NCBI GenBank assembly: GCA_015057865.1
Contig: SVDH01000001.1
Span: 112,074-176,073, forward strand
Source of the DNA: Lachnospiraceae bacterium
Lineage (GTDB): Bacteria; Bacillota; Clostridia; Lachnospirales; Lachnospiraceae
Direction: 5' to 3'
Length of the DNA stretch: 64,000 nucleotides
How positions within the stretch are numbered: position 1 is the stretch's first letter; each line of letters begins with the position of its first letter. The notes beneath the pieces were generated by a model. The model saw only the letters and a program-made list of their open reading frames with translations, did no database searches and had not been told where the DNA came from. Shown in pieces: positions 31,425-53,784 of this stretch. Both the position numbers and the translations under genes were made by a program.

Positions 31425-31709
31425 ATGTTTGTGCAACAGGAAGTTATCAGACCATCTGCGGATTTACGAAATCACTACAATGAGATTTCCAGACAGTGCC
31501 GCGAGAATAATGAAGCAGTTATTATTACGGTAAATGGAAGAGGAGATACGGTTTCTCTCGCTTATGAGGAATATAAGAGGATGAAAGCAAGGATTCAACT
31601 TTTAGAGATTCTTGCAGAAGCTGATGAAGATGTTAAGTATGGAAGAGTTGCACCTATAAAGGATACGTTTGATGACTTAAGGAGTCTTCTTAAGGAGGGA
31701 AATGCTTGA
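31425..31709 (+). CDS. type II toxin-antitoxin system antitoxin, Phd/YefM family
   Basis: A 94-aa antitoxin. The N-terminal Phd/YefM DNA-binding fold is seen in IRPSADLRNHYNEISRQCRE and VIITVNGRGDTVSLAYEEYKRM. The C-terminal acidic part (about 60-94) would wrap the toxin. CGGAGGTGAT precedes ATG 31425. The stop overlaps the toxin start by 3 bp (TTGA), the usual coupled antitoxin-first order. The pair is located in an AT-rich island with the recombinase, suggesting acquisition by transfer. Confidence 0.88.
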   Translation: MFVQQEVIRPSADLRNHYNEISRQCRENNEAVIITVNGRGDTVSLAYEEYKRMKARIQLLEILAEADEDVKYGRVAPIKDTFDDLRSLLKEGNA

Positions 31710-32023
31710 AGTACGAAGTTATACGAACGGACACAGCGGACTCCTTAATTCGAAAAATAGTTCTTTATGTTGCAGAGAATTTTGGCGCAGATGTGGCACT
31801 GGAAAAACTGGATTATCTTGAAGAAGCGATTATGAATCTGGGGGACAATCCTTACATTGGCGTTGAACCAAAATACAATGTGCTAAGGCGTCAAGGATAC
31901 TTGGTTCTTATTTTAGAAAAAGATCTTGTGTTTTATAAGGTTGATGATAGTAAGAAACAGGTTATTGTATATGCAGTTGTTGACCAAAGACAGGATTACT
32001 TAAGTATTATAAGAGGTTTGTAG
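31706..32023 (+). CDS. type II toxin-antitoxin system toxin, RelE/ParE family
   Basis: A 105-aa toxin starting at TTG 31706 behind AAGGAGGG (31692-31699). ParE/RelE-type features: an N-terminal helix pair with IRKIVLYVAENFGADVALEKLDYLEEAI, then PYIGVEPKY, a RRQGYLVLILEKDLVFYKVDD beta-strand and VIVYAVVDQRQDYLSII at the C-terminus. Whether it cleaves mRNA (RelE) or poisons gyrase (ParE) cannot be decided. All key regions are intact, so the module is probably functional. Confidence 0.85.
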   Translation: MKYEVIRTDTADSLIRKIVLYVAENFGADVALEKLDYLEEAIMNLGDNPYIGVEPKYNVLRRQGYLVLILEKDLVFYKVDDSKKQVIVYAVVDQRQDYLSIIRGL

Positions 32024-32065
32024 CACCAGAGCCTCCATGGGCATCGTGCATATGAGAAGCTCGCT

Positions 32066-32089
32066 GAAACCGCGGGTTTCTTTTGTTTT
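32066..32089 (+). terminator. terminator after the toxin gene
   Basis: A 6-bp stem GAAACC (32066-32071) / GGTTTC (32075-32080) followed by TTTTGTTTT. Confidence 0.65.
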
Positions 32090-32168
32090 GAAGTCATTTC
32101 AGCTACAATATAACTGAGATACTTATAAACTAACAATCTTTAATAGAAAGGAGGAGACAAATGATGGG

Positions 32169-32780
32169 GTGTTTGGATATGTCAGGGTAAGCAGTAGAGA
32201 CCAAAATGAAGACAGACAGATGCTGGCCATGGCTGAAATAGGCATTCCCCCCGATCATATTTATGTGGACAAGATATCCGGGAGGAACTTTGACAGGCCG
32301 GCCTACAAAAAGCTGCTGACGATTATTCATGAAGAAGATCTTCTTTATATTAAGAGCATCGACAGGTTGGGCAGAGATTATAAAGAAATCCTGGAACAGT
32401 GGAGCATGCTGACGAAAGTAAAGGAGGTGGATATCTGTGTGATTGATATGCCATTACTGGATACCAGAAACGGAAAAGATCTGATGGGGACATTTATCAG
32501 TGACCTGGTATTGCAGATCCTGTCGTTTGTAGCAGAGAATGAACGCCAGATGATCAAACAGCGGCAGGCGGAGGGCATTATGGCAGCACGGGCAAGAGGT
32601 GTAAAGTTTGGCAGGCCGGAAATGCCATTGCCTGAAAACTTCGCCGAAGTATATGGTCGATGGGCGTCCGGTCAGATCAGTGGAATAAAAGCGGCAGGGG
32701 AATTACACATGCCGCCGGCAACATTCCGATATAAGGTCAAAAAAATAGGATCAGCTTCAAAAACAAACATGACCCTATAA
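32169..32780 (+). CDS. serine recombinase (resolvase/invertase family)
   Basis: A 203-aa site-specific recombinase of the small resolvase/DNA-invertase type. The catalytic domain has the serine in GYVRVSSRDQNEDRQ (Ser8), KSIDRLGRDYKEI with the active-site arginines, and FVAENERQMIKQRQAEGI leading into helix E. The C-terminal helix-turn-helix lies at about 150-190 (ISGIKAAGELHMPPATFRYKV). The frame opens at GTG 32169, but AAGGAGGAG at 32149-32157 is better placed for the out-of-frame ATGATG at 32161, so a one-base change in the GGGG run may have shifted the start. A candidate invertible segment begins 24 bp downstream. Confidence 0.88.
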   Translation: MFGYVRVSSRDQNEDRQMLAMAEIGIPPDHIYVDKISGRNFDRPAYKKLLTIIHEEDLLYIKSIDRLGRDYKEILEQWSMLTKVKEVDICVIDMPLLDTRNGKDLMGTFISDLVLQILSFVAENERQMIKQRQAEGIMAARARGVKFGRPEMPLPENFAEVYGRWASGQISGIKAAGELHMPPATFRYKVKKIGSASKTNMTL

Positions 32781-32977
32781 CGTGAATGAACTAAAAAAGT
32801 AATTAAGTCTACTTTATTGTTTTTTTTAAACAGTTTCATCATATGATCTAACAATTCTTTTTAAAAAATCATTATTTCATTTATATTCTATCAAAAAATA
32901 ATCAAAAAAACCGTCAAACATCGCTAATTTATGCGGTTTTGGAATCTTTAGACAAAATCCCACTTTCTTGTATAGCT

Positions 32978-33006
32978 AATATAACTAATATCTATTCAGT
33001 AATCAA
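32978..33006 (-). promoter_or_regulatory. promoter inside the inverted-repeat segment, pointing left
   Basis: Read on the minus strand: TTGATT (33006-33001), exactly 17 bp, TATATT (32983-32978). In the present orientation it points back toward the recombinase. After inversion between the 15-bp repeats it would point to the surface locus, with a start about 190 bp before the 33102 gene. A weaker plus-strand candidate (TAGACA 32949-32954, 16 bp, TATAGC 32971-32976) also exists. Confidence 0.5.
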
Positions 33007-33033
33007 TAGATTGGCATTAATGCGTCAAAAATT

Positions 33034-33055
33034 GGCATAAAAGTGCCTTTTTTTT
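33034..33055 (+). terminator. intrinsic terminator just upstream of the surface locus
   Basis: GGCAT (33034-33038) pairs with GTGCC (33043-33047) around AAAA and is followed by nine T. The short stem makes it moderate. In the present orientation it would block rightward transcription into the gene at 33102. Confidence 0.6.
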
Positions 33056-33101
33056 GTGAGCAATAAAGTAGACTTTTTTGTTTCGAAAAAAGGGGAAGAG
33101 A

Positions 33102-34112
33102 ATGCCTACTATTAATGATTTGACAGCAAAGAGATTTGGCAAACTCACTGCATTGGAACCTACAAACCAGAGGGATAGCAGATATGTTGTATGGAAATGC
33201 CGATGTGACTGCGGCAAGATCTTTTTCACCAGCAGTAAAAAGCTTACACGGGGAACGGTTCAAAGCTGTGGATGTGATCAGAAAGGAAAGCGCTCACGCG
33301 GCAAGCCGGCTGAAGACATCTCAGGCCAGAGATTCGGCATGCTGGTTGCAGTAAAAAAGATGCCGTCTAAGAACAAAAGAACCATGTGGCTATGCAAATG
33401 CGATTGCGGCGGAGAGAAGATCGCGGAAAAGCAGGGATTAAAGAACGGACGGATCAGAAGCTGCGGATGCCTGCGGGGGAATGCCATCGGCGCGCCGCGC
33501 AGAGACCTGACCGGACAGACATTCGGCAGGCTGACAGCCATCGAACCAACCGAGCGAAGGGACTGCAAGGGATCCGTTTACTGGAGATGCAAATGCATCT
33601 GCGGTAACGAGGCCGAAGTCACAGAAGACTGCCTGATCAATGGCAATACCGTTTCCTGCGGCTGCAGAAGACAGGAACTCAAGGACAACATCCATAAGAC
33701 CCTTACCTTTGTTGACGGGACATGCGTTGATTACTTAAGGTCCAGAAAATCCAGATCGGATAACAAAAGCGGGTTCAGAGGAGTCTATCAGATCGGCGAT
33801 AAATACCGCGTCAGCATAGGGTTCCAGAGCAAGCGCTATTACCTGGGCGTTTACAGCGATTTCGACGAAGCAGTCCAGGTGCGGATGGATGCGGAAAAAG
33901 AACTGCACGAAAGATTCATAAAGCTCTACGACTGGTGGAGCGCACGGGCGGTCTCAGATCCCGAATGGGCAGAAGACAATCCGATAACATTTGACGTGAC
34001 AGTAAAGGATAAAGAGATTTATGTCACCTCTCCGCTGATGAAAGAGATGCAAAAAGAGCGGGCAGAGAAGCTGACAGAGATCCCGGCAAGGAGTGACGAG
34101 AAAACAGCATGA
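33102..34112 (+). CDS. triple zinc-ribbon repeat protein with C-terminal AP2-like DNA-binding domain
   Basis: A 336-aa cytoplasmic protein, probably a DNA-binding regulator. It starts at ATG 33102 after AGGGGAAG. Three repeats (about 8-60, 74-125, 136-190) share the plan RFGxLxAxE ... W-x-C-x-C-(D/I)-C-G ... G-x-x-x-SCGC, giving Cys33/35/37/56/58, Cys98/100/102/121/123 and Cys163/165/167/186/188. Residues about 222-272 (SGFRGVYQ, YRVSIGFQSKRYYLGVYSDFDEAV) look like an AP2/integrase-type DNA-binding domain. Such domains also occur in phage HNH endonucleases, but no HNH motif is present. It is first in the surface locus, directly downstream of the candidate switch and overlapping the signal peptidase gene by 4 bp. 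Confidence 0.7.
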   Translation: MPTINDLTAKRFGKLTALEPTNQRDSRYVVWKCRCDCGKIFFTSSKKLTRGTVQSCGCDQKGKRSRGKPAEDISGQRFGMLVAVKKMPSKNKRTMWLCKCDCGGEKIAEKQGLKNGRIRSCGCLRGNAIGAPRRDLTGQTFGRLTAIEPTERRDCKGSVYWRCKCICGNEAEVTEDCLINGNTVSCGCRRQELKDNIHKTLTFVDGTCVDYLRSRKSRSDNKSGFRGVYQIGDKYRVSIGFQSKRYYLGVYSDFDEAVQVRMDAEKELHERFIKLYDWWSARAVSDPEWAEDNPITFDVTVKDKEIYVTSPLMKEMQKERAEKLTEIPARSDEKTA

Positions 34113-34756
34113 CAGGTGAAGAACATACCGCGCACATCGCGGAAGAGAGCTTAGAAGAGACCGTTCTCCGACAGGAAGAAGAGATCGAAGGTCTAAAAGT
34201 ACAGCTGGCTCTGGCTCAGGAGATCAAAAAAGAGGATACAAAGCACCGGTTCAGATGGGCGCTGCGGAATACGATCTTTACGCTGATCACGGTAGCAGCG
34301 ATCGCAGTACTGATCGCGGTCTTCCTGATGCCAGTGATGCGGATTTACGGAAGCAGCATGAACCCCATCCTGCAGGAAGGTGACATCGTAGTATCGGTAA
34401 AAGACAACAGCATGAAAACCGGAGATGTCGTCGCGTTTTACTACAACAACAAGATCCTGGTCAAGCGCGTGATTGCGCAGTCCGGAGACTGGGTGGACAT
34501 CAGCGAAGACGGAACGGTCTATGTAAATAATCAGCAGATCGATGAACCGTATCTGCAGGAAAAAGCATTCGGAGAATGTAATATCACGCTCCCCTATCAG
34601 GTGCCTGATGAAAAGGTATTTGTCATGGGAGACAACAGAAGTGTATCAATCGATTCGAGAAACACAGCCGTTGGATGTGTTTCGCAGGAACAGGTAGTCG
34701 GAAAAATCGTATTTTGCGTGTGGCCGTTACGCCATTTCAGCGGGGTGAAAGGCTGA
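34109..34756 (+). CDS. lepB: signal peptidase I (bacterial P-type)
   Basis: A 215-aa membrane-bound type I signal peptidase. One helix (about 53-73) precedes the catalytic Ser83 in YGSSMNP. Lys119 lies in KILVKRVIAQSGD, and box E reads VFVMGDNRSVSIDSR, so it uses the Ser/Lys dyad of prokaryotic enzymes, not the SipW Ser/His type. The N-terminal cytoplasmic tail (about 12-43) is a predicted coiled coil, longer than in most homologues. ATGA overlap couples it to the preceding gene. Position in the locus suggests it matures the pilins, TasA-like proteins or adhesins that follow. Confidence 0.92.
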   Translation: MTGEEHTAHIAEESLEETVLRQEEEIEGLKVQLALAQEIKKEDTKHRFRWALRNTIFTLITVAAIAVLIAVFLMPVMRIYGSSMNPILQEGDIVVSVKDNSMKTGDVVAFYYNNKILVKRVIAQSGDWVDISEDGTVYVNNQQIDEPYLQEKAFGECNITLPYQVPDEKVFVMGDNRSVSIDSRNTAVGCVSQEQVVGKIVFCVWPLRHFSGVKG

Positions 34757-35154: not shown

Positions 35155-36738
35155 ATGAAAAAGTTAAAGAAAACTATGGCTTTAGCACTTGCTGGAGCAT
35201 TGGTTGTTGCTATGGCGGTTCCGGCTATGGCAGCGCCTGGTGATTTTACAGGAACGGCAGAAACAACAATCACTGCTAAAGATGTTGTTGCTGGAGATTC
35301 AGTTAATTATATTCAATTGGTAGAATGGGATGCTACTACTAGCGACTGGAAACTTACTACCGATGGCACAAGCTGTGGAGTGTCATTAGCAAACTTGGTT
35401 GATGGTATCTCTGAAGAAGAAGCAGGGACAATTGCAACGAATGTGACAGCTACTGGTACAGCAATGACAGCAGGTGATCCGGCTACAACATTTACCGCAA
35501 CAGTTAATCCTGGTCTGTATTATTTGAAAGCTATTCCAGCAACAGGTAATAAAGATACTCTTTATAATCCTGCATTTGTATCTGCTGATTATTACGACGG
35601 TGGTAATGAAATCAGCTTTGGAAGCACATATGAAGATTCTACGGTTGTAAAAAAATCAACGGTTCCATTTGATAAAGAAGTAAACAGTACCTCAGATACT
35701 TTCAAAGATGTAAAGCCTGGCGATACTGTACCTTTTAAAGTAACAACAACGATTCCGGCATTTGGTTCATCGTTTACAAATCCCAAATTTAGTGTTACTG
35801 ATGTACTTTCTACAGGTCTTGAGCTTGAGGGAAATGTATCAGTACAATATGGCGAAAATACAGTTACTGCATCAAATGCTGATGTTACAATCACGCCAAA
35901 TTCAGATAAAAGCGGCTATACTGTGGAGTTTAGCAAAGGGTATTTAACAGGATTGAACGGTGCCACACCGAATGTTGAAATCACATATTCAGCAAAAGTC
36001 ACAACAGCAGGCGAAAACAATGTGACTTATATGGATAATAAAGCTACCCTGACTTTCTCAAATACACCTTCAACAAACGTATCAAAAGATGACATTACTC
36101 GCCACTACACGTTTGCGATTGATGGAAGTCTACTTGGCCAGACTGGTAAGGAAGGTAGTGAATTAATTAAAACTGGAACGGATGCAAATGGGAATATTCT
36201 TACTGAGAATAAGAAAACTTATCATGGTACAGAAGTAAGCGCATTGAATGGTGCAACTTTCAAATTAGTTGGAACTGGCGCACTTGAAGGAGTTGAAAAG
36301 ACAGCTCAATCCGATGGAAATGGACGGATTAATTTTGATGGCCTTGATGCAGGAACATATAAATTGACTGAAGAAAGCGCTCCAGCTGGTTTTGTTAAAG
36401 ACACTAGAGAATTCACAGTAACTATTACTCCAACATATTCAACTGATCCGGCAACACCAGATCTCTTAGTTAGTTATGAAATTACTATTACCGCACCAGC
36501 AAGCGGAAACACACCTGCATATAATGGTGGCGCAACATTTAACATGACTAATGATGGTGGAGTAACAGTGACCTCTTCAGAGGAAAGTGCATCTAACTTC
36601 ATTAACAATACCCAGGGTGCCGAACTTCCGTCCACCGGTGGCATGGGTACCACAATCTTCTACATCATCGGTATCATCCTTGTAGTAGGCGCTGGCGTTG
36701 TTCTGGTTTCTCGCAGAAAAATGCGCGCACAGCAGTAA
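35155..36738 (+). CDS. LPXTG-anchored major pilin (isopeptide-forming fimbrial backbone protein)
   Basis: A 527-aa secreted backbone pilin. The signal peptide (1-27) ends in VPAMAA. Residues about 165-330 form a fimbrial D2 isopeptide domain (VPFDKEVN ... VKPGDTVPFKVTTTIP ... VTDVLSTGLEL). About 375-430 is a SpaA-type Cna-B domain (LNGATFKLVG ... AGTYKLTEESAPAGF with an E-box). The sorting signal is LPSTGG, then a hydrophobic helix and RRKMRAQQ. AAAGGAGGA precedes the ATG. The neighbouring class C sortase would polymerise it. Codons are visibly more A/T-rich than those of adjacent genes, suggesting exchange by recombination. Confidence 0.92.
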   Translation: MKKLKKTMALALAGALVVAMAVPAMAAPGDFTGTAETTITAKDVVAGDSVNYIQLVEWDATTSDWKLTTDGTSCGVSLANLVDGISEEEAGTIATNVTATGTAMTAGDPATTFTATVNPGLYYLKAIPATGNKDTLYNPAFVSADYYDGGNEISFGSTYEDSTVVKKSTVPFDKEVNSTSDTFKDVKPGDTVPFKVTTTIPAFGSSFTNPKFSVTDVLSTGLELEGNVSVQYGENTVTASNADVTITPNSDKSGYTVEFSKGYLTGLNGATPNVEITYSAKVTTAGENNVTYMDNKATLTFSNTPSTNVSKDDITRHYTFAIDGSLLGQTGKEGSELIKTGTDANGNILTENKKTYHGTEVSALNGATFKLVGTGALEGVEKTAQSDGNGRINFDGLDAGTYKLTEESAPAGFVKDTREFTVTITPTYSTDPATPDLLVSYEITITAPASGNTPAYNGGATFNMTNDGGVTVTSSEESASNFINNTQGAELPSTGGMGTTIFYIIGIILVVGAGVVLVSRRKMRAQQ

Positions 36739-36900: not shown

Positions 36901-37968
36901 GTGCGGATACGAAAAAACAAGCACAAGATTGACTCAGAGCATACTGAGCAAAAAGAGAATATAGAGAACACAGAAAGCGTAGAGGATACGAGTAATTCTC
37001 CGAAAAAGAAAAAGGGTTGGTTCAAGCGGCATATGGTCGGGTTTATCCTGACACTCATCCTAATCGGTGGGGCGAGCCTTTTGGCATACCCTTCAGTGGC
37101 GAATTACTGGAACCAGTTCCACCAGACACGCGCAGTCATGGACTACGTGCAGGCGGTGGATGATTTAGATGAAGAGGACTACGAAGCGGTTTTACAATCT
37201 GCCTACGACTATAACAGACGGCTGGCCGAGACGGGATTTAACTGGATGCCGGATGAGGCACAACTGGCAGATTATGAAAACCAATTAGATATAAACGATA
37301 CAGGAATCATGGGATATGTAAATATCCCGAAGATCAATGTGATGCTGCCGATCTACCACGGCATTGACGAAACGATTTTGCAGATTGCGATCGGTCATCT
37401 GGAAGCCTCGAGTCTTCCGATCGGCTGCGAGAGCTATAGCTTCGAGGAACGGCGTGTGACAGATCCTTCAGAGGGGAGCCATACCTTGGTCTCTGGGCAC
37501 AGAGGACTGCCGTCGGCACGGTTATTCACAGATCTGGATCAGCTGGTCGAGGGAGATCAGTTCTCCCTGACAGTCCTAAACGAGACGATGACCTATGAGG
37601 TCGATCAGATCCGGATCGTAGAGCCGTCAGATCTTTCGGCACTGCAGCTGGAGCTGGGTCAGGATTACTGCACATTGATCACATGTACGCCGTACGGTGT
37701 CAATACACACAGGCTTCTGGTGCGGGGGCACCGCATACAGAACACGTTTGATGACGGAAACATTAAGCCGGAGGCGATTAAATTTGAACCGGGGCTGGTC
37801 GCACCGCTGGTGGCAGCGCCGATCCTGTTGCTTTTGCTGATCCTGTTATTGATCACAACACGCAGCAAGAAAAAGGAACCACAAAAAGATAGCAAATGGA
37901 AACAAAGGAAAAGGAGGGACACCGGGACCGATGATGGCCGGGAGGTGGAGCATGAGAACAAGGAATGA
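36901..37968 (+). CDS. srtC: class C sortase (pilus polymerase)
   Basis: A 355-aa membrane transpeptidase. Start GTG 36901. An N-terminal helix (44-63), a catalytic domain (about 130-280) and a C-terminal helix (about 300-318) give the class C topology. His200 lies in LVSGHRGLPSARLF, Cys262 in TLITCTPYG and Arg271 in NTHRLLVRG. An extra Cys-containing loop (about 176-190) precedes the histidine. The enzyme cuts LPxTG-type pilins and joins them covalently. The preceding LPSTG pilin is the obvious substrate, and the LPNxG adhesins may be tips or be anchored by it. The next gene overlaps by 17 bp. Confidence 0.95.
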   Translation: MRIRKNKHKIDSEHTEQKENIENTESVEDTSNSPKKKKGWFKRHMVGFILTLILIGGASLLAYPSVANYWNQFHQTRAVMDYVQAVDDLDEEDYEAVLQSAYDYNRRLAETGFNWMPDEAQLADYENQLDINDTGIMGYVNIPKINVMLPIYHGIDETILQIAIGHLEASSLPIGCESYSFEERRVTDPSEGSHTLVSGHRGLPSARLFTDLDQLVEGDQFSLTVLNETMTYEVDQIRIVEPSDLSALQLELGQDYCTLITCTPYGVNTHRLLVRGHRIQNTFDDGNIKPEAIKFEPGLVAPLVAAPILLLLLILLLITTRSKKKEPQKDSKWKQRKRRDTGTDDGREVEHENKE

Positions 37969-39088
37969 AAAACTGACAAAAAGAAGATTCCTGCCGGTGA
38001 TGCTGGCGCTCATACTGGCGGCGGCAGTGGCTGTGCCGATGGGAAGCGGCCTTGCATTTGCAGACGAGGATGAGGAAAAGATCGGTACGCTGACCGTGAA
38101 CGTGCAGAACGCTCAGGACGAGTATGGCACCTTTGGCGAGGATCTGAACGGTGGAACATATGGCGATGTTGCGTTTTACCGTGTTGCGAAAGGCATAAAG
38201 AGTCAGACCCATGACACCTGGGACTGGACACTGGAAAAGGGATTTGATTCTGCCGACATGCAAAGCCTCTTAAAAGATGCCGAAGATGGGAAGCGGACAG
38301 AAGACGGTCAGGATGCCTATGAGGCATTGGCGGCGAAAGCCTTGAAGGCAATCGTATCTGATGATACAGGGGCTTATACACCGGTGGACGCAGCATCGTT
38401 CGGAGCCAAGAGCCCGTCTCTGCCGGCAGGCATTTACCTGGCAGTGCCGAGACAGGCCGGCGATGACGGAAAGAGCATTGTGGCAGATGAACAGGGCAAT
38501 GCCACGGTGACGACGGATGAATACGTTTATACGTTTTCACCGATGATGATCTCGGTTCCGTCAAAGGAGGCGAAGGATGGCAAGATTGGATCTGCGGACG
38601 ATTATGGCCCGTGGATCATGGATGTCCAGATGACCACAAAGGCTGCACGTAAACCAGCCGCGGGAAGCATATCCATCACAAAGAGCCTGTCCACGTTTGA
38701 GACAAAGAAGAATGCAAAAGCGACCTTTGTTTTCCGGATCAAGGCAGAAAAGGATGGCGTTCCGGTGTATGACGATGTGGTTTCCATCGCGTTTACCGAT
38801 GCCGGTTCCCAGACACGTAAGATTGACGGCATTCCTGTCGGAGCAACGGTAACCGTGACAGAAGATTACGATGGTCATTCTTACAAGTTGACATCAGATC
38901 CGTCGCAGACGGTGACAGTTGCGGCTGACGAAATCAGAAATGTCAAGTTTACCAATGACTATGATGACACATTCCATGGCGGTGGCGGTGTGGAAAACGG
39001 CTTCTCGAAAGAAGTAAAAGAAGACGGAACACCGGGCAAATGGAATTTCAAACAGATTTTCAGTGGAGAGAAACAGTATAACGATTAA
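37952..39088 (+). CDS. secreted pilin-like protein with Cna-B/DUF5979-type domain, no sorting signal
   Basis: A 378-aa exported protein. The ATG at 37952 follows GGGAGGTGG. It has a basic start and signal helix cut near AFA. About 30-215 resembles the first domain of pilins (NGGTYGDVAFYRVAKGI ... LPAGIYLAVPR). About 240-340 is a Cna-B/DUF5979-like domain (GSISITKSLSTFE ... GIPVGATVTVTEDYDGH ... VKFTNDYDD). There is no LPxTG and no C-terminal membrane helix, so it is either released or incorporated by other means. It overlaps the sortase gene, so it probably belongs to the pilus. Confidence 0.75.
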   Translation: MRTRNEKLTKRRFLPVMLALILAAAVAVPMGSGLAFADEDEEKIGTLTVNVQNAQDEYGTFGEDLNGGTYGDVAFYRVAKGIKSQTHDTWDWTLEKGFDSADMQSLLKDAEDGKRTEDGQDAYEALAAKALKAIVSDDTGAYTPVDAASFGAKSPSLPAGIYLAVPRQAGDDGKSIVADEQGNATVTTDEYVYTFSPMMISVPSKEAKDGKIGSADDYGPWIMDVQMTTKAARKPAAGSISITKSLSTFETKKNAKATFVFRIKAEKDGVPVYDDVVSIAFTDAGSQTRKIDGIPVGATVTVTEDYDGHSYKLTSDPSQTVTVAADEIRNVKFTNDYDDTFHGGGGVENGFSKEVKEDGTPGKWNFKQIFSGEKQYND

Positions 39089-39118
39089 CAGGAGACGCTT
39101 TGGCGTAAGGAGCAGCTT

Positions 39119-39655
39119 ATGAAAAAGAAAGTAATGGCCCTTGGATGCGCGGCAGCCGTACTGATCGCATCCGTATCGATAGGCGGGGCATGGTCTTACT
39201 TTACAACCTATGCTGAGACATCGGGGGAGAGAACCATTTCTCTGGGTGATGTGACAGAGATCCATGAGGATATATCTGACTGGACGAAAAAGGTGAGGGT
39301 CACCAGTGAACCGAAATCTCAGCCTGTTTATGTGCGCGTTCAGGCGTTTGCGGGATCCGCATACCAAGATCTTTTGCAGTATAGCGGGGCGGACTGGGTA
39401 AAACCGGCCGGAGATGATTACTACTACTATACGCAGCCTGTTATCGCAACAGAGGAAGAGGAAGGCGAGACCAGCCAGCTGGAAATTTCTCTGAAAAACA
39501 TCCCGGACAGTTTGCCGCCGGGAGACAATGACTTTAATGTAGTGATCGTGTATGAAACGACACCTGTGATCTTTGGAGCAGACGGAAATCCGATTGGATA
39601 TGACCGTGTCGACTGGTCACAGAAGGTTAATACAGAAGCCGAAGGGGGTGAGTGA
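39119..39655 (+). CDS. TasA/CalY-like secreted fibre-type protein 1
   Basis: A 178-aa exported protein. The N-terminus (about 1-45) has the camelysin/TasA-type signal plan: a hydrophobic core, then GGAWSYFTTYAETSGERTISLGDV, matching the family's G-x-x-x-YF-T-D/Y-x-A ... G pattern in which cleavage precedes the YF region. The mature region is a compact beta domain (VTSEPKSQPVYVRVQAFAG). TasA-type proteins form biofilm fibres in Bacillus. This assignment is by motif only. Two further small exported proteins follow in the same orientation. Confidence 0.65.
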   Translation: MKKKVMALGCAAAVLIASVSIGGAWSYFTTYAETSGERTISLGDVTEIHEDISDWTKKVRVTSEPKSQPVYVRVQAFAGSAYQDLLQYSGADWVKPAGDDYYYYTQPVIATEEEEGETSQLEISLKNIPDSLPPGDNDFNVVIVYETTPVIFGADGNPIGYDRVDWSQKVNTEAEGGE

Positions 39656-39657
39656 TT

Positions 39658-40455
39658 ATGAAAAATAAAAAACGATTCACCTCAAGAGCGACAACGACAG
39701 TCCTCGCGGCTGCGGCGGTCGTAGTTCTGGCGCTTTCTGGTGTAACAGGTGCGCGTGCGGCGCTGACCTATTTTTCCGAGACCTACACGACACAGGCGCA
39801 GATGTATGACATCGGCGTCAGCCTGATGGAAAAGAGTGGCGACGCAGAAGATTACGAGCGCGTGGCATGGCGTGATTACAGTCGCCGGGGCGACGGCGTC
39901 TGGAATCAGGACTATGTGGAGCTGCTTGGCGGCATTGAGCAGAACATCATTCCGGGCAAGGTTTATCCGGAGGAGCTGGCAGTGCAAAACAGCGGTACGA
40001 TCGATGAGTATGTTCGTGTGACGATCCGTAAGTACTGGGTGGAACAATCAGGCGATGAAGAAACCGGCGTGACGGAAAGTAAAGACCAGACCCTTGACCC
40101 GGATCTGATCGACATCCATTTCATCAATGATTCTGTCTGGGAAATCGAAGAAGATACGCAGGGCGATGAGGAACGGACGGTTCTTTATTATAAAAACGTC
40201 CTGAAATCAGGAGATATAACGCCGCCGCTTTGCGACACACTGACAGTGGACGGTTATCTGGCGACAAAGGTAACACAGACACCGGAAACCTTTACAGGGG
40301 AAGACGGCAGCACATACACCAGAATCACGACCACATATGACTATGACGGTATGGCGTTTAAGGTAGAAGCAAGGGTGGACGCGATCCAGACCCACAATGC
40401 GGATGACGCGGCAATCAGCGCATGGGGACATAACTATGCGAACTTTACGGAGTAA
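39658..40455 (+). CDS. TasA/CalY-like secreted fibre-type protein 2
   Basis: A 265-aa exported protein. The ATG at 39658 has GAAGGGGG at the right distance; a GTG at 39652 is too close. The signal region ends TGARAALTYFSETYTTQAQMYDIG, again with the YF motif of TasA/CalY-like proteins. The mature part contains PEELAVQNSGTIDEYVRVTIRKYW, the recurring family feature in which the chain is described as a continuous tensile beta sandwich. It follows protein 1 by 2 bp. No sorting signal. Confidence 0.65.
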   Translation: MKNKKRFTSRATTTVLAAAAVVVLALSGVTGARAALTYFSETYTTQAQMYDIGVSLMEKSGDAEDYERVAWRDYSRRGDGVWNQDYVELLGGIEQNIIPGKVYPEELAVQNSGTIDEYVRVTIRKYWVEQSGDEETGVTESKDQTLDPDLIDIHFINDSVWEIEEDTQGDEERTVLYYKNVLKSGDITPPLCDTLTVDGYLATKVTQTPETFTGEDGSTYTRITTTYDYDGMAFKVEARVDAIQTHNADDAAISAWGHNYANFTE

Positions 40456-40467
40456 GGGAGACAGGCT

Positions 40468-41211
40468 ATGAAGAAGAATCGAATCATAAAAAATACGATA
40501 CTCGGTCTGGTGGTCGCCTCCGTACTGTCAACTGCCGTACCGGCAATGGCGATGTCCTATACAGGCGATCCCGACTGGAGCGTAAGTTTTTCGCAGGATG
40601 AAAAGATGGTCTCGAATTTTACGACGGGACAAATCTACGATGTGATGGACCAGATGCAGCCTGGTGATAACGCGAAGATCGAACTGACCGTACGCAATGA
40701 CAACGATGCTTCCACAGACTGGTACATGAAAAATGATGTCATTGAGTCTCTGGAAGAAAGTGTCAGCGTAGCATCAGGCGGTGCGTACAGCTATCGCCTG
40801 ACCTATAACGGCGAGGATCTGTACAACTCGGATGACGTCGGCGGAGACGGAACCAGCAAGGCCGGCATCGGTCTGCACCAGGCGACCAATTCTCTGAAGG
40901 ACTATTTTTATCTGGATACTTTGAAAAAGGGCGAGACCGGCAAGGTAACGCTCGAAGTAGCACTGGAAGGTGAGACACAGGGTAACGACTATCAGGATAC
41001 ACTGGCAAAAGTTGATATGTCATTTGCCGTAGAGCTGACGCCGACCGGCGGAAACACGACAAAGCATAATACCATCAATCGTTCCAAGGTTGTAAAGACC
41101 GGTGATACGAATATGGCTCCGTATGCCATCGCAGGCGGCATCGCGGGTGCAATACTCCTGGTACTGGCTGTTGCCAGCGCAAGACGTCGCAGAAAGGAGG
41201 CCAGAGCATGA
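40468..41211 (+). CDS. exported cell-wall protein with atypical VKTGD anchor
   Basis: A 247-aa exported protein: a signal peptide to about residue 28 (VPAMAMS), a beta domain (about 30-195) including QMQPGDNAKIELTVRNDNDASTDWYM, reminiscent of TasA-like folds, and a C-terminus VVKTGDTNMAPYAIAGGIAGAILL then RRRRKEARA. The VKTGD-helix-Arg pattern is a plausible non-canonical sortase signal, as seen in Clostridia; otherwise it is simply a membrane anchor. It overlaps the next gene by 4 bp. Confidence 0.65.
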   Translation: MKKNRIIKNTILGLVVASVLSTAVPAMAMSYTGDPDWSVSFSQDEKMVSNFTTGQIYDVMDQMQPGDNAKIELTVRNDNDASTDWYMKNDVIESLEESVSVASGGAYSYRLTYNGEDLYNSDDVGGDGTSKAGIGLHQATNSLKDYFYLDTLKKGETGKVTLEVALEGETQGNDYQDTLAKVDMSFAVELTPTGGNTTKHNTINRSKVVKTGDTNMAPYAIAGGIAGAILLVLAVASARRRRKEARA

Positions 41212-42206
41212 AAAAGAGATTAAAAGGCCTTCGGAAAAAAGCACTGTGCTTCGGGCTTTCACTGGCAGTCATGCTGGGGCTGGGCGTATGGGCGGCAGCA
41301 CCTGTCATGGCGGCAGATGAGGCATATGATTATACGATCCGGATTTATTCCGGCGCGCAGGGAACCTATAACGGTGAGCAGACGATTAAAGCTAATTATG
41401 GGGATAAGATTTCATTTTATCCTCAGAAGAATACGACTGTTACAGATGAAAAGTATTATGTGAAAGGAATCCGCGAAGCGGGACTTGACAATAATGAAGC
41501 AGTAGAAGAGTCAACAATAACGGTCACAGAAGATGTGGATTATGTCATCGCGTATGGCATAAAGGATAAGACCGTATCCTACACCATCAACTATGTGGAT
41601 GCGGCCGGGAATACACTGGAGGACAGTGAAACATACTATGGCAACATCGGAGACAAGCCGGTTATCGCGTTTCTGTATATCGAAGGTTATCAGCCGCAGG
41701 CGTATAACCTGACCAAAACCCTTTCTGAAAACGAAGGGGAGAATCAGTTTACGTTCGTATATACGGCCAATCCGACTGAAACCACGACAACCGTCACGAC
41801 CACGACGACAACAACGACAACTGTCGCAGGTACTGGTACCGGTGGCACAGGCGGCACAGGAACCGCTGGTACAGCTGCAGGTGGCACGGGAACCGGCGGA
41901 GTAGCCGGTGGCGCAGGCGGCGCCGGAACAGGTACCGGGGACGCTGGCACAACAGGGCCGGCCGATATCGTAGACCTGGATGATCAGGATGTACCATTGG
42001 CAGGTGTAAACGATGGAAACGGCGGCAATGGTGATGACAACAGCGCAGTCGGAGAAGAGACTATCAACAATGAAAAGCCGCCGCTTGGAAAACTGTCTAC
42101 CGCAGCGAAAGCTGCTATCGGCGTAATCATCGCAGCGGCGATCATCGTGCTGATCATCGCACTGGCAATGCGTGCCCGCAAGCGGAAGAACGAAGAAGAA
42201 ACATAA
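41208..42206 (+). CDS. membrane-anchored surface protein with MucBP-like domain and Thr/Gly-rich stalk
   Basis: A 332-aa surface protein. Signal peptide 1-36. The N-terminal domain (37-120) is unrecognised. About 122-187 resembles a MucBP repeat (VSYTINYVDAAGNTLEDSETYYGNIGD ...). A threonine run (190-205) and a Gly/Thr-rich low-complexity stalk (207-245) follow. The C-terminus is a membrane helix (about 300-322) with a basic tail. A VPLAG tract at about residue 262 is far from the helix, so sortase anchoring is doubtful. MucBP-type domains often contact host mucins or glycans, but binding here is inference. Confidence 0.7.
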   Translation: MKKRLKGLRKKALCFGLSLAVMLGLGVWAAAPVMAADEAYDYTIRIYSGAQGTYNGEQTIKANYGDKISFYPQKNTTVTDEKYYVKGIREAGLDNNEAVEESTITVTEDVDYVIAYGIKDKTVSYTINYVDAAGNTLEDSETYYGNIGDKPVIAFLYIEGYQPQAYNLTKTLSENEGENQFTFVYTANPTETTTTVTTTTTTTTTVAGTGTGGTGGTGTAGTAAGGTGTGGVAGGAGGAGTGTGDAGTTGPADIVDLDDQDVPLAGVNDGNGGNGDDNSAVGEETINNEKPPLGKLSTAAKAAIGVIIAAAIIVLIIALAMRARKRKNEEET

Positions 42207-42291: not shown

Positions 42292-45200
42292 ATGATGAAA
42301 AAATGGATCGAGTTATTAAAAAAGAAAAAAACGGCTATGACAATCGCGATGATACTCGTCGTATTTGTCACAACATATGCTTTGATCCTGCCGGCATTAA
42401 CGATCGAAAAGAGTGCAGCCAGTGAAGAGGCTGGCATCGTTCTGGATCAGGAAGCGGCGCATCAGACAGATGCGGAAGTCCTCACGGCAGAGAATGATGC
42501 TGTGGAAGATGAACAAGAAACTGAGGTACCGGCTGATGTTGTGGTTGATACACAGGCAGTTTCTGACACATCTGATACTGATGCAGAAAAAGACACATCC
42601 GCAGTTGCTGAAAATACAGCAGCGGATGCTGTCGCTATGCCCGCACAGGACTTCGAGCAGGAGTTAAAAGAAGAGGGAATCACTGTCTTCGTAAAAGCCA
42701 AAGAAGGCGCGTTGCCGGAAGGCACCACGATGAAAGCTGAGCCAGTAAGTGACCAGGAGACTCTGGACAAAATCACTGATGCGGCACAGAAAGAAGCCGG
42801 CGATGACACCAGAATCAAAGAGGTACAGGCAGTCGACATCTCCTTCTGGAATAACGATGAAGAAATCGAACCAAAAGAGAATGTTTATGTAACGATCGCA
42901 TCTTCCCTGATCGAAGATGCTGAGGAAAACGAACCCATCATTGTCCACGTAAACGACGATGACAGCGACAAAGTTGCTGACAATAAGAAAGGCAAGGCTG
43001 AAGTTGTCAAAGCGATGACAGACAAGCAGCTGAAGAAGGAAGACATCTCACCGGCTGATGACGAGATCGTGTTTGAAGCAGATCAGTTTTCTGTATACGG
43101 CGTCGCGTATACGGTGGATTTCCATTGGGAAGTTGATGGTGAAATTTACGAGTTTTCACTTCCGGGAGGCGGATTCGTTAGTTTTACACAGCTCGTGGAA
43201 ATCCTAGGTGTGGCTAAAAACGATGTACAGAGTGAAAACATAGAACAGTCGACAGAAATTCAAAACGCTGAGGCTTTTGAAAGCAAGCCTGCCGACAGTG
43301 CTGATGTACAGGATGATTCAGCTATTCTGCTGGATGATATCTCGATTAGTGAGGAAACCAAAAAGTTTGTTGCAGATGTAGAAAATGTGGAATTCAGTTC
43401 ACCAGAATTAGTCTGGGTTGGGAAAATCGATGAGAATACTACCGTTGGACAGATAAAGGACGAATACAAACTTGAGTGTGAGTATAGTTATCGTCTGACT
43501 TGGGATGAAATCGAAAAAATCAATGCTACAGTCATTGAAAAGGGGGATTGGGGAATTATTTCTCTGAAAGCCTTTGATACAAACGAGCAGCTCAAGGTTA
43601 CGATGAAGGATGGACGTGAGTTCATCATCGAAGTTACGGACTATGCTAAATACGAGCCTGTGGAGAATGATGGTGTTACGATACCGAATCCTAACGGAAC
43701 TACTATAAATTTGTTCGATTATTGGGTTGACAGCAATTTGAAGGACAGAACAGGGAAATCGGCATGGCCCGGATATAATGGAAATAATTATACTTCTACA
43801 TGGCATCATGGCCAAGAGCTTTTGGGCAGTGGTAACAATAAAGGCATTAACAGCTGGTCGGGTAATGTAAATGAAGGTCATGCTTTAAAATTCAATCCTT
43901 CAGATCATCATACGGTTATTGACGGTAATTATAATAATTGGCGTACACGCAGTGAAAATGGAAGCCCAAGAATAAATAGCTGGCAGGGGGATGCCGATCC
44001 ATTGCAGGGTTTGGTAGAACCCACCCTGAACAGCGAGGGATACCCTACACTTACGAATAATAGCGACCTTGGCACCAACGGAGAAAAATTGAACTATCTC
44101 TTTGATGGTACCTCTGGTGATAATATGGGTAAAGCAGTGCATCCCGGTGTTGATGGTCTGTTATATGTGGACAAAGACGGATACTACACCTACGATAGCC
44201 GTGATTTTACAGCTACCTACAACGGAGACACAGCCAAGACGTTTACTCTGGCACCTCAGACCGCTGCAGAAGGCAGCGGACCTCGTGGGTTCTGGCCATT
44301 TGGTTCGGAAAAATTCTGGTTTGGCATGCATTTGAAAGTGGACTTTTCCATGCCGTTCAACGGACAAGTCCTTAATCCTTCAGGTGTATATAAAGATATG
44401 GAGTTCTCCTTCTCAGGTGATGATGACACGTGGATTTATGTAGATGGTATCCTTGTTGGTGATGGAGGCGGTGTTCATAACCGAACGGAGATAGATGTCA
44501 ATTTCCGGACAGGTACTGTGTATGTAACAGGAAAGAATGATCCAAGCTATACAGGAACTTTCGAGCAAACAACTTATTTGGAGGACTACTACCGAAATGC
44601 AGGCAGATTTAATCCGGATGATTGGACTCCTGTCCTGAATGATCAAGGAGAGATCGTTTACAGAACAGTAAATGGAACTAGTCAACCTGTGCTGACATTC
44701 AAAAACGGCACTGATCACAATCTCCAAATGTTCTATATGGAGCGTGGTGGTGGATACTCCAACTTGATGATTCATTATAATCTGATTTCGACTACTGATT
44801 TTTCGGCGCATAAGTCCTACCATAATACAGATGGAAGTGTGCTGAGAAGAAATGATTATAAGTTTGAATTGATCGGGTACGATAATCCCGAATATGCATC
44901 TGAGGACGAGCTTGTTCATGCTATCATGCCGGATGCCATTCCCTGGGATGACTCAAAACCATTAGGAACTTTTGAAAATCCGCTTTGGAACGATGTAGAG
45001 GCTACAGGAACGACTCCCGCAGGTAAGTCTTTGATTATCGGTAATACGGAAGACGGTAATGTCAACTTCGGTAATAAGGAGATATCTTCTGCATATGCCG
45101 GAAAATCATATAAGTATATGGTACGTGAGATTGTTCCAGATAATGCTGTTAATGTGGACGGTGTCGAATGGAGAAATGCTTCCGAAGAGGTGAAGCAGGA

Positions 45201-47880
45201 AGGCGGTTTTTCCTTAGGAGGTATAACGTACGATTCCAGAGTATACTATTTCATCGGTACTGTGGTGGAAACTGCTCCGGGTTCCGGAAAGTATAAAATG
45301 GTAAAGCAGCGCTTTCTTGATCCGGAATGCACACAACCTGATCCTGCGAATTTCCACAGTTTTGTAAACGGAGCAGAAATACCAGTCTCACTGAAGGTTA
45401 TTAAAAAGAGCAACGATACCCAATCACTGCTTGACGGGGCTGTATTCTCCCTTACCAGGGCTATGCAGAATGCGGATGATAAATGGGTGGTGCGCGAGTG
45501 GGAAAACAGTAATCACACGACTCAGCACGCGCAGCCTGTCACTGAAACTACATCAAGCGGAACGCTGACATTTAACAACCTGGCTGAGGGACATTATATC
45601 CTTGAAGAACTGCAAGCTCCTGTGGGGTATCAGAAGGGTGATCCAAGCCGCTGGCTGCTTACGCTTGAGAAACAGGATTCTGCAACAAAGATTCTCCTAG
45701 TGCCGTATATTACACCTTTGGATGCAGAGGGAAATACGAACGGCAGCAGAGTCCAGCTTAACCCGCCGAACGACGAGAATATCATAGAATACGAAGTGTT
45801 GAATGGCCCGCTGCCGCCGATCGATCTTTCTCTTCAAAAGAAGTGGAATGATAACGGCGATACAAGCGTGCCTGAAGACGCACAGGCGACTTTCGAACTA
45901 CACAGGATCAAGACGATAGCACCAGTAAATGTACAGCTGTTGGATAGTCAGGGAAAAAAGGTTGATGAGATAACGGCGTATGTAGGCGATACGATAAAGA
46001 TCTATGACACAGAGACGAACACTGCGAATGCTTTTAAGCATCACACGTCGACTCCAAGCTTTTTTGATCCTGATTGGACAAGATCCAGAAACGACACTAT
46101 TAGACCAAACGACTCTGGATGGGAAATACGAACCAGAACAGTGTATGATTGGAACTGGGGCTCGTGGAGTATGACAGAAAGCAGTTCAACAAGTACCTCG
46201 AACGGCCAGTACACAGTGAAGCAGGCAGATGTTACTGCTGGCGTCGTGCAGCTGCGATTAAGTGAAAACTACATGGCATCGCAAACATATGGTTTTGACA
46301 AGCTGCCAAAACTCTATATCTCCAACAGTGCAAGTGGTTCGACAACGGTGGATGAGGTTATAAGCACCTTCACCTTGAAAGCACAAAATGGAGACGGTGA
46401 TGCAGGAGATCCCTGGAAAAAGTCGTTCGACGACCTTCCGCTTGTGGATGAGAACGGTCATCCCTATAACTATTACTTCAAGGAAGTTAGTCATTTGCCC
46501 GCCAACTTTAATGTACAGACTGTTGAAGGCAATATGGGAACTGCCGCAAGTCCGCTTACTGAAAGCGGGGATGTTGTTGTTACAAACAAAACACCTGAGT
46601 TACCTAACATCACAGCCTCCAAGGTCTGGAAGGATGAAAATGGAAATATTATAGATGATGAATCTGGTCTTGATGGGCTGGAAGTTAAACTGACCCTATA
46701 TAAAGGAGCATCACCAGCTCCTTCGACAGAAGTAAAGAAAGGGGAAGTGACCAGAACGGTTTCTGGTAATGATTCTACAACCTGGTACCTGCTTGACGAA
46801 GATGCAGATGTTACGGACTATACAGTTAAGGAAACTGAGGTGAAGATCCCAGGCGGAGATTTCATCCCCGTGACTCCTGATGCGAATCCTTCGGATAATC
46901 CTTTCGGAGGAAAAGTGAGCGGATCTTCATCGACTGGTTACACAGTCACAAATCAACTACCAGAGACAGAAATCTCAGTAACCAAGCAGTGGAAAGACGG
47001 AACTACCACGAATGCTGACAAGGTGTTTGAAGAAGCTAAAACTATCAATTTCACTTTGCATCAGAAACTTGGCAGCAATGGAGGCTCACCTTATACGATT
47101 GAAGGTCAGCCTGTCAGAGGTACAGTGACATACACACCGGCAAGCGGATCAACTGCGGCTTCTTGGAGCACTGAATCTATTAGTAATCTGCCGAAGTATG
47201 TGTATTCGGACGGAAACTGGCTTGAGGCAACGTACTATCCGGTCGAAGATGCTATAGATGGTGTTGCGATTACTTATCAGAAAAAAGGCGGAAATGCATC
47301 CGAAGAGCCATCAGATGCTGCAGTTACAACCGGAGCAGTTACCATTATCAATACAGATATTGTTGTTCCGCTTAAGATCGTAAAGGTTGAAAAAGACCAC
47401 CCGGAAACAGGCCTTGCTGGGGCAAAATTCCAGCTGACCAGAAAGCTTTCCGGAGAGGGTGGTTTTACTAAATTTGTTCACGATGATTTTGAAGAGGATC
47501 CGGACAACGGTAATAAAAAGACTGGACCTTTCACAGTGTCCTCAACAGACGGAATCATTCTTGAAGGGCTGCTTCCCGGTGAATATAGGATTGAGGAAAA
47601 GCAGGCTCCAGATGGATACGTTATTACTCTTCAGCCATTCACGTTTACCGTGAATGCCGATGGTACGATTACGTCAACGGATGCAGACACATCACTTGTT
47701 TTGCCTCTAGAGAAAAGCGGAACGGGTCCTGAAGGATTCCAGATTGCCAACGTCCCCGGCGCGGCCCTTCCGAACGCCGGCGGCCCGGGTACACGGCTCT
47801 TTACGATTCTTGGCGCAATTATAGTCGCAGGAGCAGGATTGTTGTTGTGGAATAGAAAGAGGCATAAAGCAGAGTTTTAA
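42292..47880 (+). CDS. giant LPXTG-type adhesin A (PA14/fibro-slime plus Cna-B repeats)
   Basis: An 1862-aa cell-wall protein. The atypical signal peptide KKWIELLKKKKTAMTIA ... TTYALILPALTIEK is shared with the two paralogues. About 30-265 is the conserved acidic N-terminal module (AVDISFWNNDEEIEP ... IVFEADQFSVYG). About 665-835 is a PA14/fibro-slime carbohydrate-binding-type region with SGDDDTWIYVDGILVGDGGGVHN and FYMERGGGYSN. From about 1030 on come Cna-B/SpaA repeats (ITASKVWKDENG, ISVTKQWKDG, GEYRIEEKQAPDGY with an E-box). It ends in LPNAGG, a helix and RKRHKAEF. Such domains suggest a long stalk with a binding head. A 6-7 A tract follows the start (codons 9-13). Confidence 0.9.
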   Translation: MMKKWIELLKKKKTAMTIAMILVVFVTTYALILPALTIEKSAASEEAGIVLDQEAAHQTDAEVLTAENDAVEDEQETEVPADVVVDTQAVSDTSDTDAEKDTSAVAENTAADAVAMPAQDFEQELKEEGITVFVKAKEGALPEGTTMKAEPVSDQETLDKITDAAQKEAGDDTRIKEVQAVDISFWNNDEEIEPKENVYVTIASSLIEDAEENEPIIVHVNDDDSDKVADNKKGKAEVVKAMTDKQLKKEDISPADDEIVFEADQFSVYGVAYTVDFHWEVDGEIYEFSLPGGGFVSFTQLVEILGVAKNDVQSENIEQSTEIQNAEAFESKPADSADVQDDSAILLDDISISEETKKFVADVENVEFSSPELVWVGKIDENTTVGQIKDEYKLECEYSYRLTWDEIEKINATVIEKGDWGIISLKAFDTNEQLKVTMKDGREFIIEVTDYAKYEPVENDGVTIPNPNGTTINLFDYWVDSNLKDRTGKSAWPGYNGNNYTSTWHHGQELLGSGNNKGINSWSGNVNEGHALKFNPSDHHTVIDGNYNNWRTRSENGSPRINSWQGDADPLQGLVEPTLNSEGYPTLTNNSDLGTNGEKLNYLFDGTSGDNMGKAVHPGVDGLLYVDKDGYYTYDSRDFTATYNGDTAKTFTLAPQTAAEGSGPRGFWPFGSEKFWFGMHLKVDFSMPFNGQVLNPSGVYKDMEFSFSGDDDTWIYVDGILVGDGGGVHNRTEIDVNFRTGTVYVTGKNDPSYTGTFEQTTYLEDYYRNAGRFNPDDWTPVLNDQGEIVYRTVNGTSQPVLTFKNGTDHNLQMFYMERGGGYSNLMIHYNLISTTDFSAHKSYHNTDGSVLRRNDYKFELIGYDNPEYASEDELVHAIMPDAIPWDDSKPLGTFENPLWNDVEATGTTPAGKSLIIGNTEDGNVNFGNKEISSAYAGKSYKYMVREIVPDNAVNVDGVEWRNASEEVKQEGGFSLGGITYDSRVYYFIGTVVETAPGSGKYKMVKQRFLDPECTQPDPANFHSFVNGAEIPVSLKVIKKSNDTQSLLDGAVFSLTRAMQNADDKWVVREWENSNHTTQHAQPVTETTSSGTLTFNNLAEGHYILEELQAPVGYQKGDPSRWLLTLEKQDSATKILLVPYITPLDAEGNTNGSRVQLNPPNDENIIEYEVLNGPLPPIDLSLQKKWNDNGDTSVPEDAQATFELHRIKTIAPVNVQLLDSQGKKVDEITAYVGDTIKIYDTETNTANAFKHHTSTPSFFDPDWTRSRNDTIRPNDSGWEIRTRTVYDWNWGSWSMTESSSTSTSNGQYTVKQADVTAGVVQLRLSENYMASQTYGFDKLPKLYISNSASGSTTVDEVISTFTLKAQNGDGDAGDPWKKSFDDLPLVDENGHPYNYYFKEVSHLPANFNVQTVEGNMGTAASPLTESGDVVVTNKTPELPNITASKVWKDENGNIIDDESGLDGLEVKLTLYKGASPAPSTEVKKGEVTRTVSGNDSTTWYLLDEDADVTDYTVKETEVKIPGGDFIPVTPDANPSDNPFGGKVSGSSSTGYTVTNQLPETEISVTKQWKDGTTTNADKVFEEAKTINFTLHQKLGSNGGSPYTIEGQPVRGTVTYTPASGSTAASWSTESISNLPKYVYSDGNWLEATYYPVEDAIDGVAITYQKKGGNASEEPSDAAVTTGAVTIINTDIVVPLKIVKVEKDHPETGLAGAKFQLTRKLSGEGGFTKFVHDDFEEDPDNGNKKTGPFTVSSTDGIILEGLLPGEYRIEEKQAPDGYVITLQPFTFTVNADGTITSTDADTSLVLPLEKSGTGPEGFQIANVPGAALPNAGGPGTRLFTILGAIIVAGAGLLLWNRKRHKAEF

Positions 47881-47942
47881 TAATTTATGAGCAGGATAAG
47901 AAATCTGCAGCAATCTGAAAAGGCGAGAAGGATTGATGAATT

Positions 47943-53573: not shown

Positions 53574-53602
53574 GAAATAATATCAGAAGAAACAAGATAG
53601 AG

Positions 53603-53634
53603 CGGAACTGGTCATTGTGCCGGTTCCGTTTTCT
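53603..53634 (+). terminator. terminator between adhesins B and C
   Basis: A 9-bp stem CGGAACTGG (53603-53611) / CCGGTTCCG (53620-53628) followed by TTTTCT. Confidence 0.8.
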
Positions 53635-53690
53635 TAATATACGGCATTTTTGGCATAAAGCATGGCGTTTTGGATTGTTTGACGGTTGTT

Positions 53691-53719
53691 TTGACGATGG
53701 CAATACTATAATATATATT
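53691..53719 (+). promoter_or_regulatory. separate promoter for adhesin C
   Basis: TTGACG (53691-53696), 17 bp, TATATT (53714-53719). With the preceding terminator it makes adhesin C an independent transcription unit, outside direct control of the putative switch at 32.8-33.1 kb. A second TTGACG lies at 53679-53684. Confidence 0.65.
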
Positions 53720-53733
53720 GCAAGGGAGACTGT

Positions 53734-53784
53734 ATGGCAAAAATGGTTGCAAAAGGAGACGCAGACGGTGAAGAAATGGATTGA
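53734..53784 (+). CDS. 16-codon leader ORF overlapping the adhesin C start
   Basis: ATG 53734 after AAGGGAG encodes MAKMVAKGDADGEEMD and stops at TGA 53784, inside the adhesin C frame that begins at GTG 53768. The overlap of 17 bp and the placement suggest translational coupling of the GTG start. It may be chance, as the sequence is short. Confidence 0.35.
   Translation: MAKMVAKGDADGEEMD

Follow-up and report, generated by a model that had tools for sequence, protein, structure and literature searches.

Genetic organization of the locus

The window, by which we mean the whole 64-kb stretch of DNA analyzed, carries a small serine recombinase gene, a non-coding segment bounded by inverted repeats, and a same-strand gene run of ~27 kb from 33102 to 60376. 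The recombinase gene (32169-32780, plus strand) starts with GTG and encodes 203 aa. A ParE-type toxin-like gene (31706-32023; PF05016, 43.1 bits) ends about 145 bp upstream of it.

The first gene of the run (33102-34112, plus strand, like all that follow) encodes three CxCxCG modules and an AP2-like domain and has no Pfam match of its own. Behind it lie genes for a signal peptidase I (34109-34756; TIGR02227, 133 bits, cutoff 47), an LPXTG-anchored pilin-like protein (35155-36738; TIGR04226, 66.6 bits, cutoff 30; PF00746, 29.6 bits, cutoff 20), and a class C sortase (36901-37968; NF033745, 251 bits, cutoff 160). Five smaller predicted exported proteins are encoded at 37931-42206; one has an LPXTG anchor match, and two of the five match no family. 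The run ends with three very large surface proteins that combine SpaA domains with LPXTG-type anchors (42292-60376; PF17802 in all three). PF00746 scored above its cutoff in two of these, and the first one reached 19.9 bits against the cutoff of 20. The full SpaH/EbpB major-pilin model stayed under its cutoff (65.4 against 95). The class C sortase and the LPXTG pilin-type proteins (NF033745, TIGR04226) form the combination that characterizes a sortase-assembled pilus cluster. Taken together, the family matches mark the locus as a cluster for sortase-assembled pili and adhesins, with an AP2-type protein encoded first. A sequence-only reading of this DNA had placed the head of a surface locus at 33102, and this was borne out; its end lies at 60376, beyond the 53573 named there for a transcript test.

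The recombinase carries the serine recombinase catalytic domain (PF00239, E 1.1e-26) and aligns with Sin and gamma-delta. When solved structures were ranked by sequence, which is not a tree, Sin/Bin3 came first (2r0q, E 1.8e-28), followed by gamma-delta (6.1e-21) and DNA-invertase chains (2.3e-16 and 6.8e-16). The enzyme is not closest to Hin/Gin in this ranking, and the Mpi family model missed it (NF009949, NCBIfam; 39.8 bits against a cutoff of 272). The recombinase is likely to act like an invertase of the Hin kind, and we make no claim of Hin/Gin membership.

The repeat-bounded segment

The inverted arms AAGTCTACTTTATTG occupy 32805-32819 (plus) and 33061-33075 (minus), are 100% complementary over 15 bp, and have 241 nt between them, so the perfect repeats claimed between the recombinase and the first locus gene are present as described. 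They form the sole perfect 15-bp inverted pair with a gap of 60-600 bp in the window. In a first-order Markov model of 32700-33200, such a pair arose in 16 of 20000 simulated sequences. Exact matching found no further copy of the arm pair in the 2.16-Mb genome, whereas a MITE would have been expected to place the same pair at many sites. The segment has a GC content of 25.5%, compared with 45.9% for the recombinase gene and 50.3% for the next gene.

Both arms are near-palindromic about an asymmetric 2-bp core, CT. Serine-recombinase crossover sites share this layout, and the asymmetry of the core sets the direction of joining. The left crossover-like site, AATTAAGT-CT-ACTTTATT (32801-32818, plus; core 32809-32810), contains the first part of the left arm. 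The right site, AAAAAAGT-CT-ACTTTATT in the minus reading (33062-33079, minus; core 33070-33071), overlies the right arm. The segment predicted from relatives to invert runs from 32809 to 33071, 263 bp core to core. Measured from site to site it is 279 bp, on the long side against a family median of 156.5 bp. An inverted repeat pair flanking a non-coding segment that adjoins a recombinase gene is the arrangement of an invertible promoter with an adjacent recombinase.

When 98 genomes were searched at the DNA level with the segment, 10 gave matches, this genome among them; the remaining matches were short, and one that covered an arm (L004) sits between unrelated genes. An Rfam search of 31900-33200 gave no match at E up to 0.5.

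The segment carries a minus-strand promoter block, TGCCA-N5-TTGATT-N17-TATATT (32978-33016), which points away from the locus; its hexamers, TTGATT-17-TATATT, lie at 33006-32978, and a second TGCCA lies at 33033-33037. A leader block, TTTGACGGTTTTTTTGAT (32901-32918, minus), is shared by the three AP2-headed switches of this genome. On the plus strand, a terminator-like hairpin with a T run (33034-33055; hairpin 33034-33047; fold z -2.09) faces the locus, as had been read from the letters. The claim of a minus-strand promoter stands in part. The hexamers are present, and taken alone they are at chance level (4 promoter-like sites against 2.5 expected; p 0.29 against the segment's own shuffles). 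What raises the candidate promoter above chance-level hexamers is the conservation of the block in two paralogous switches. The proposal that a hairpin at 32907-32940 might attenuate transcription after inversion was not supported: on the strand that would then be transcribed it folds no better than shuffles (z -0.74; other strand, z -2.13), and it is not conserved as a hairpin.

Related switches in the same genome

This genome encodes six members of the recombinase family. Site pairs were identified for four, with the cores CT (window), CT (L106), GT (L107), and TT (L103). No site pair was found near L104 or L105. L104 and its same-genus counterpart L110, also without a nearby site pair, precede genes that look by eye like cobalamin-biosynthesis genes. 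The three other switches with a recombinase and a site pair (L106:5454-5814, L107:1526-1868, and L103) precede adhesin or pilus genes.

The promoter block TGCCA-N5-TTG-N20-TATANT occurs three times in the 2.16 Mb, only in the three AP2-headed switches (window, L106, and L107), and the same holds for the leader block TTTGACNNTTTNTTTGAT. Both patterns were derived from these three segments and must therefore occur in them; their absence elsewhere and their sense are informative. The reversed patterns had no match in the genome. Relative to the AP2 gene, the blocks point away in the window and in L106 (OFF) and toward it in L107 (ON). Column identity of the three segments was 67% when they were aligned in the ON sense, compared with 58% as given. 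Behind each of the three promoters, a terminator-like hairpin faces away from the promoter, where chance would give 0.2 to 0.5 per region. The L106 hairpin also scores on the opposite strand, and the best L106 promoter by plain scoring is a near tie (9.6 toward the cargo, 9.5 away). The hairpin sequences differ among the three switches.

Site pairs behind related recombinases

In the first draw, one scan of the species-genome collection gave 200 confirmed loci, and the best 80 were taken; their recombinases are 58-71% identical to that of the window. Seventy-one loci, the window included, had at least 300 bp to examine. A site pair scoring at least 20 was present in 36 of the 71 and in 0 of 71 control stretches; at a score of at least 19, the counts were 40 and 4. 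The control stretches came from elsewhere in the same loci and are mostly coding, so their composition differs. When the rule was tightened slightly and the stretch of each locus was letter-shuffled three times, no shuffle scored above 18.5. Self-complementary cores were excluded in that run, and this filter was dropped for the counts over 71 and 99 loci. The second draw covered 397 family genomes, 226 of which held a recombinase relative at the permissive E of 0.001, and yielded 28 loci. Ten of the 26 long enough passed, compared with 1 of 26 control stretches; after removal of four loci that repeated earlier ones, 8 of 22 passed.

A looser motif rule, which demands only arms of the form GT..[AG]C and not equal cores, was applied to the 99 loci left after removal of five repeated loci and those shorter than 270 bp. 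It found a site pair in 74 of the 99, in 36 of 495 shuffles, and in 1 of 69 stretches further downstream. Even under this rule, 25 of the 99 loci had no site pair. Equal cores were seen in 68 of the 74 loci and in 9 of the 36 shuffle pairs; the tally over the 68 was GT 54, AC 4, AT 4, CT 3, TT 2, and AG 1. The self-complementary AT core occurs in L041, L060, L062, and L072 (the last doubtful), and alone it would not favour inversion over deletion. Because some loci are near-identical, the locus counts are not fully independent. The family segments start a median of 14 bp past the recombinase stop.

Promoter-like sites above the 95% level of letter-shuffled segments were present in 27 of 52 segments, from which two doubtful ones, L047 and L072, had been left out. 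The best-scoring promoter-like site pointed toward the cargo in 18 of the 52 and away in 34.

The first genes behind ten related switches were scanned with Pfam. They encode a helicase with a restriction-type domain, an MmeI-type methylase (just under cutoff), an MBOAT acyltransferase, a glycosyltransferase, an AMP-binding enzyme, a TnpB-like protein, a cytosine methylase, an MmeI-type N-terminus, a PLD/helicase-type protein, and a DUF4214 protein. PADLOC, run on six cargo proteins, matched every one to restriction or other defence models, although two of the matches were weak. Because the cargo includes restriction/defence and other genes, the switch module is not restricted to surface loci. 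The switches L151, L156, L157, and L153 precede restriction-modification or other defence-type genes.

Inversion among relatives

Two pairs of related loci show matching flanks around inverted segments. In L066 and L070 (Oscillospiraceae), the flanks are identical at 120 of 126 and 186 of 200 positions, and the segment agrees at 48 of 121 positions when aligned directly and at 121 of 121 when inverted. The change of sense falls in the GTGTGC core, and the recombinases are 58% identical to that of the window. This 121-bp segment directly precedes a TnpB-like gene. In L151 and L156, the flanks agree at 407 of 408 and 408 of 408 positions and the inverted segment at 114 of 114; these recombinases are about 65% identical to that of the window. 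The L151 and L156 genomes are filed under different genera, and therefore either the DNA moved recently or one bin is contaminated; both forms exist regardless. The expectation under which the switch would fail, that related genomes never show inversion, is contradicted by these two pairs.

Sense was callable in 37 pairs of related segments, 24 in the same sense and 13 opposite, and the calls were consistent within each of the 8 clusters. Three clusters are mixed in sense, and five are single-sense (5, 3, 2, 2, and 2 loci), one of which (L079, L080) is without equal cores. In the mixed cluster that caps helicase genes, TTGACT-17-TATAAT reads forward in L015 and L028 and in reverse in L017 and L024.

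The AP2-type first protein

The structure model of the first protein had a mean pLDDT of 85.4 and a pTM of 0.49. Foldseek returned no match at E 0.001, and the top chains by E were unrelated kinases with low probability. Plant TEM1 AP2-domain chains matched the C-terminal part with a probability of 0.99-1.00 and E 0.06-0.3. Among the 120 homologs listed for this protein, 6 have a Pfam AP2 domain. Two relatives encoded on metagenome contigs, P0001 and P0002, are 78 and 74% identical. The AP2-type first protein may be a regulator.

Homologs of the AP2-type protein were present in 46 of the 397 family genomes. Of the 28 AP2 loci L118-L145, only three were accompanied by a recombinase relative in the DNA retrieved around them, and one of these relatives is 35% identical; the link between AP2 and switch is therefore limited to a few lineages. 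For the 29 AP2 loci fetched from other genomes (L115, L118-L145), the 700 bp upstream did not contain the TGCCA promoter block. Upstream of the AP2-type genes in L129 and L130, from other genera, there are perfect inverted repeats of other sequence (at least 18 bp, 219-296 bp end to end).

Regulatory model and alternatives

We consider it likely that the segment is a phase-variation switch, in which the adjacent Sin-like recombinase flips the promoter-bearing 263-bp segment and thereby controls the pilus locus. The recombinase would cut and rejoin the DNA at the two inverted near-palindromic sites. The segment it flips carries the minus-strand promoter-like block and the plus-strand terminator-like hairpin. 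In the present orientation the switch would be OFF, with the promoter directed across the recombinase gene, away from the locus, and the terminator facing the pilus locus. After inversion it would be ON; the promoter would face the locus, with its -10 element ending 200 bp upstream of the first start codon, and the terminator would face the opposite way. An invertible promoter that is OFF in this copy had been proposed, and the proposal is backed by the site pairs of the family, the two inverted locus pairs, and the paralogous switch in the ON sense. The invertible promoter is evident in relatives, and the comparison with them argues strongly for one at the window locus. We infer that the window segment inverts by the action of this recombinase and so sets transcription of 33102-60376.

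The copy in the window might instead be locked: the segment would belong to an invertible family, the recombinase would be poorly expressed or changed, and the locus would be stably silent or driven from elsewhere. The recombinase must use the GTG at 32169, 12 nt after the ribosome-binding-site-like GGAGGAG; two better-placed ATGs (32161, 32164) are out of its frame, and their frame stops after nine codons. Two of the six recombinase copies in the genome are also without a site pair. Against a locked copy, the frame is open across 203 aa and aligns with Sin through the catalytic domain, and the RVSS and DRLGR motifs are kept. The arms also match perfectly over 15 bp, whereas those of a dead switch would be expected to have diverged. 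We regard a locked copy as unlikely.

Even less probable, in our judgment, is that the segment inverts chiefly to move the terminator, so that transcripts from the recombinase promoter enter the locus or stop, with no real promoter inside. The hairpin that faces the locus and the weak score of the window hexamers are what such a mechanism would predict. Against it stand the promoter block, whose sequence and spacing are kept in three switches of this genome, the enrichment of promoter-like sites in the family, and the differing hairpin sequences of the three switches. That the recombinase and repeats are a mobile-element remnant (a MITE, an IS607-like element, or a resolution site) with no switching role is rejected as barely credible. 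In its favour, the solved structures closest in sequence are those of resolvases, and TnpB-like genes follow some of the related switches (L066 by Pfam; L070 and L073 by similar sequence). Against it, exact matching found no second copy of the repeat pair in the genome, the genes behind site pairs are unrelated and the cores of these pairs vary, and inverted segments lie between matching flanks.

The promoter-flip switch may be part of something wider. We propose, tentatively and with more doubt than confidence, that a self-contained Sin-like promoter-flip cassette with GTNNAC sites has spread through Lachnospiraceae and beyond as a movable cap in front of genes for pili, adhesins, polysaccharide enzymes, and restriction-modification. 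Several of the copies in this genome would form one regulon, three of them sharing blocks read by the AP2-type protein that each encodes first; feedback would tune or lock chance flips, and differing cores would keep some switches apart. That the AP2-type protein acts on the TGCCA and TTTGACGG (leader) blocks is a guess, and its feeding back on the two conserved blocks is more speculative than the inversion.

If the model is true, the 27-kb pilus and adhesin locus would be made by only part of the population. With the arms around GTNNAC as a guide, on/off loci of many uncultured gut and rumen species could be predicted from nothing but their sequence, and how a resolvase-like enzyme performs simple promoter inversion would become testable.

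Comparison with known systems

Invertible promoters are well known; the present case stands apart by its Sin-like recombinase, by the range of genes that the family precedes (pilus, polysaccharide, and restriction), and by an AP2-type gene at the head of the locus. In the Hin/hix flagellar switch of Salmonella, a serine invertase acts on inverted near-palindromic sites with a 2-bp core, and the flipped segment contains a promoter. The window locus resembles it in all of these: a serine recombinase, inverted near-palindromic sites with 2-bp cores, and a promoter-like block within the segment predicted to flip. Hin is encoded inside its own invertible segment (PMC5903667) and requires a Fis-bound enhancer, whereas the window recombinase gene lies outside the segment and its protein is nearer to Sin.

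Mpi of Bacteroides fragilis, as described in PMC5903667, is a serine-type invertase that flips promoters before surface loci, and the likeness lies in both the enzyme type and the flipped promoters ahead of surface genes. Mpi serves many distant sites as their master enzyme; here, in contrast, each enzyme adjoins its own pair and the cores differ. The RecV protein of Clostridioides difficile, which serves the flgB and cwpV switches, also inverts promoter or leader DNA before surface genes in a clostridial host, but it is a tyrosine recombinase (PMC5903667).

Phase variation has been reviewed (PMC11868660). A literature search over titles and abstract starts found, among the matches listed, no paper on this recombinase family or its site, which does not prove that none exists. 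In a 2025 inverton survey of a defined gut community, the most significant pair is the clostridial inverton group 139 and the tyrosine-type invertase group 35 (PMC11892184). Those invertons and the ones described here both adjoin their invertase in Clostridia, and the recombinase class differs. The invertases named for clostridial switches in the available parts of PMC11892184 and PMC5903667 are tyrosine-type, and a Sin-like serine family would differ from them.

The staphylococcal Sin/Bin3 resolvases are the nearest solved relatives by sequence. Sin acts as a resolvase and, together with a DNA-bending protein, builds a synaptosome. By contrast, the sites here are simple and inverted, and inversion is seen in relatives.
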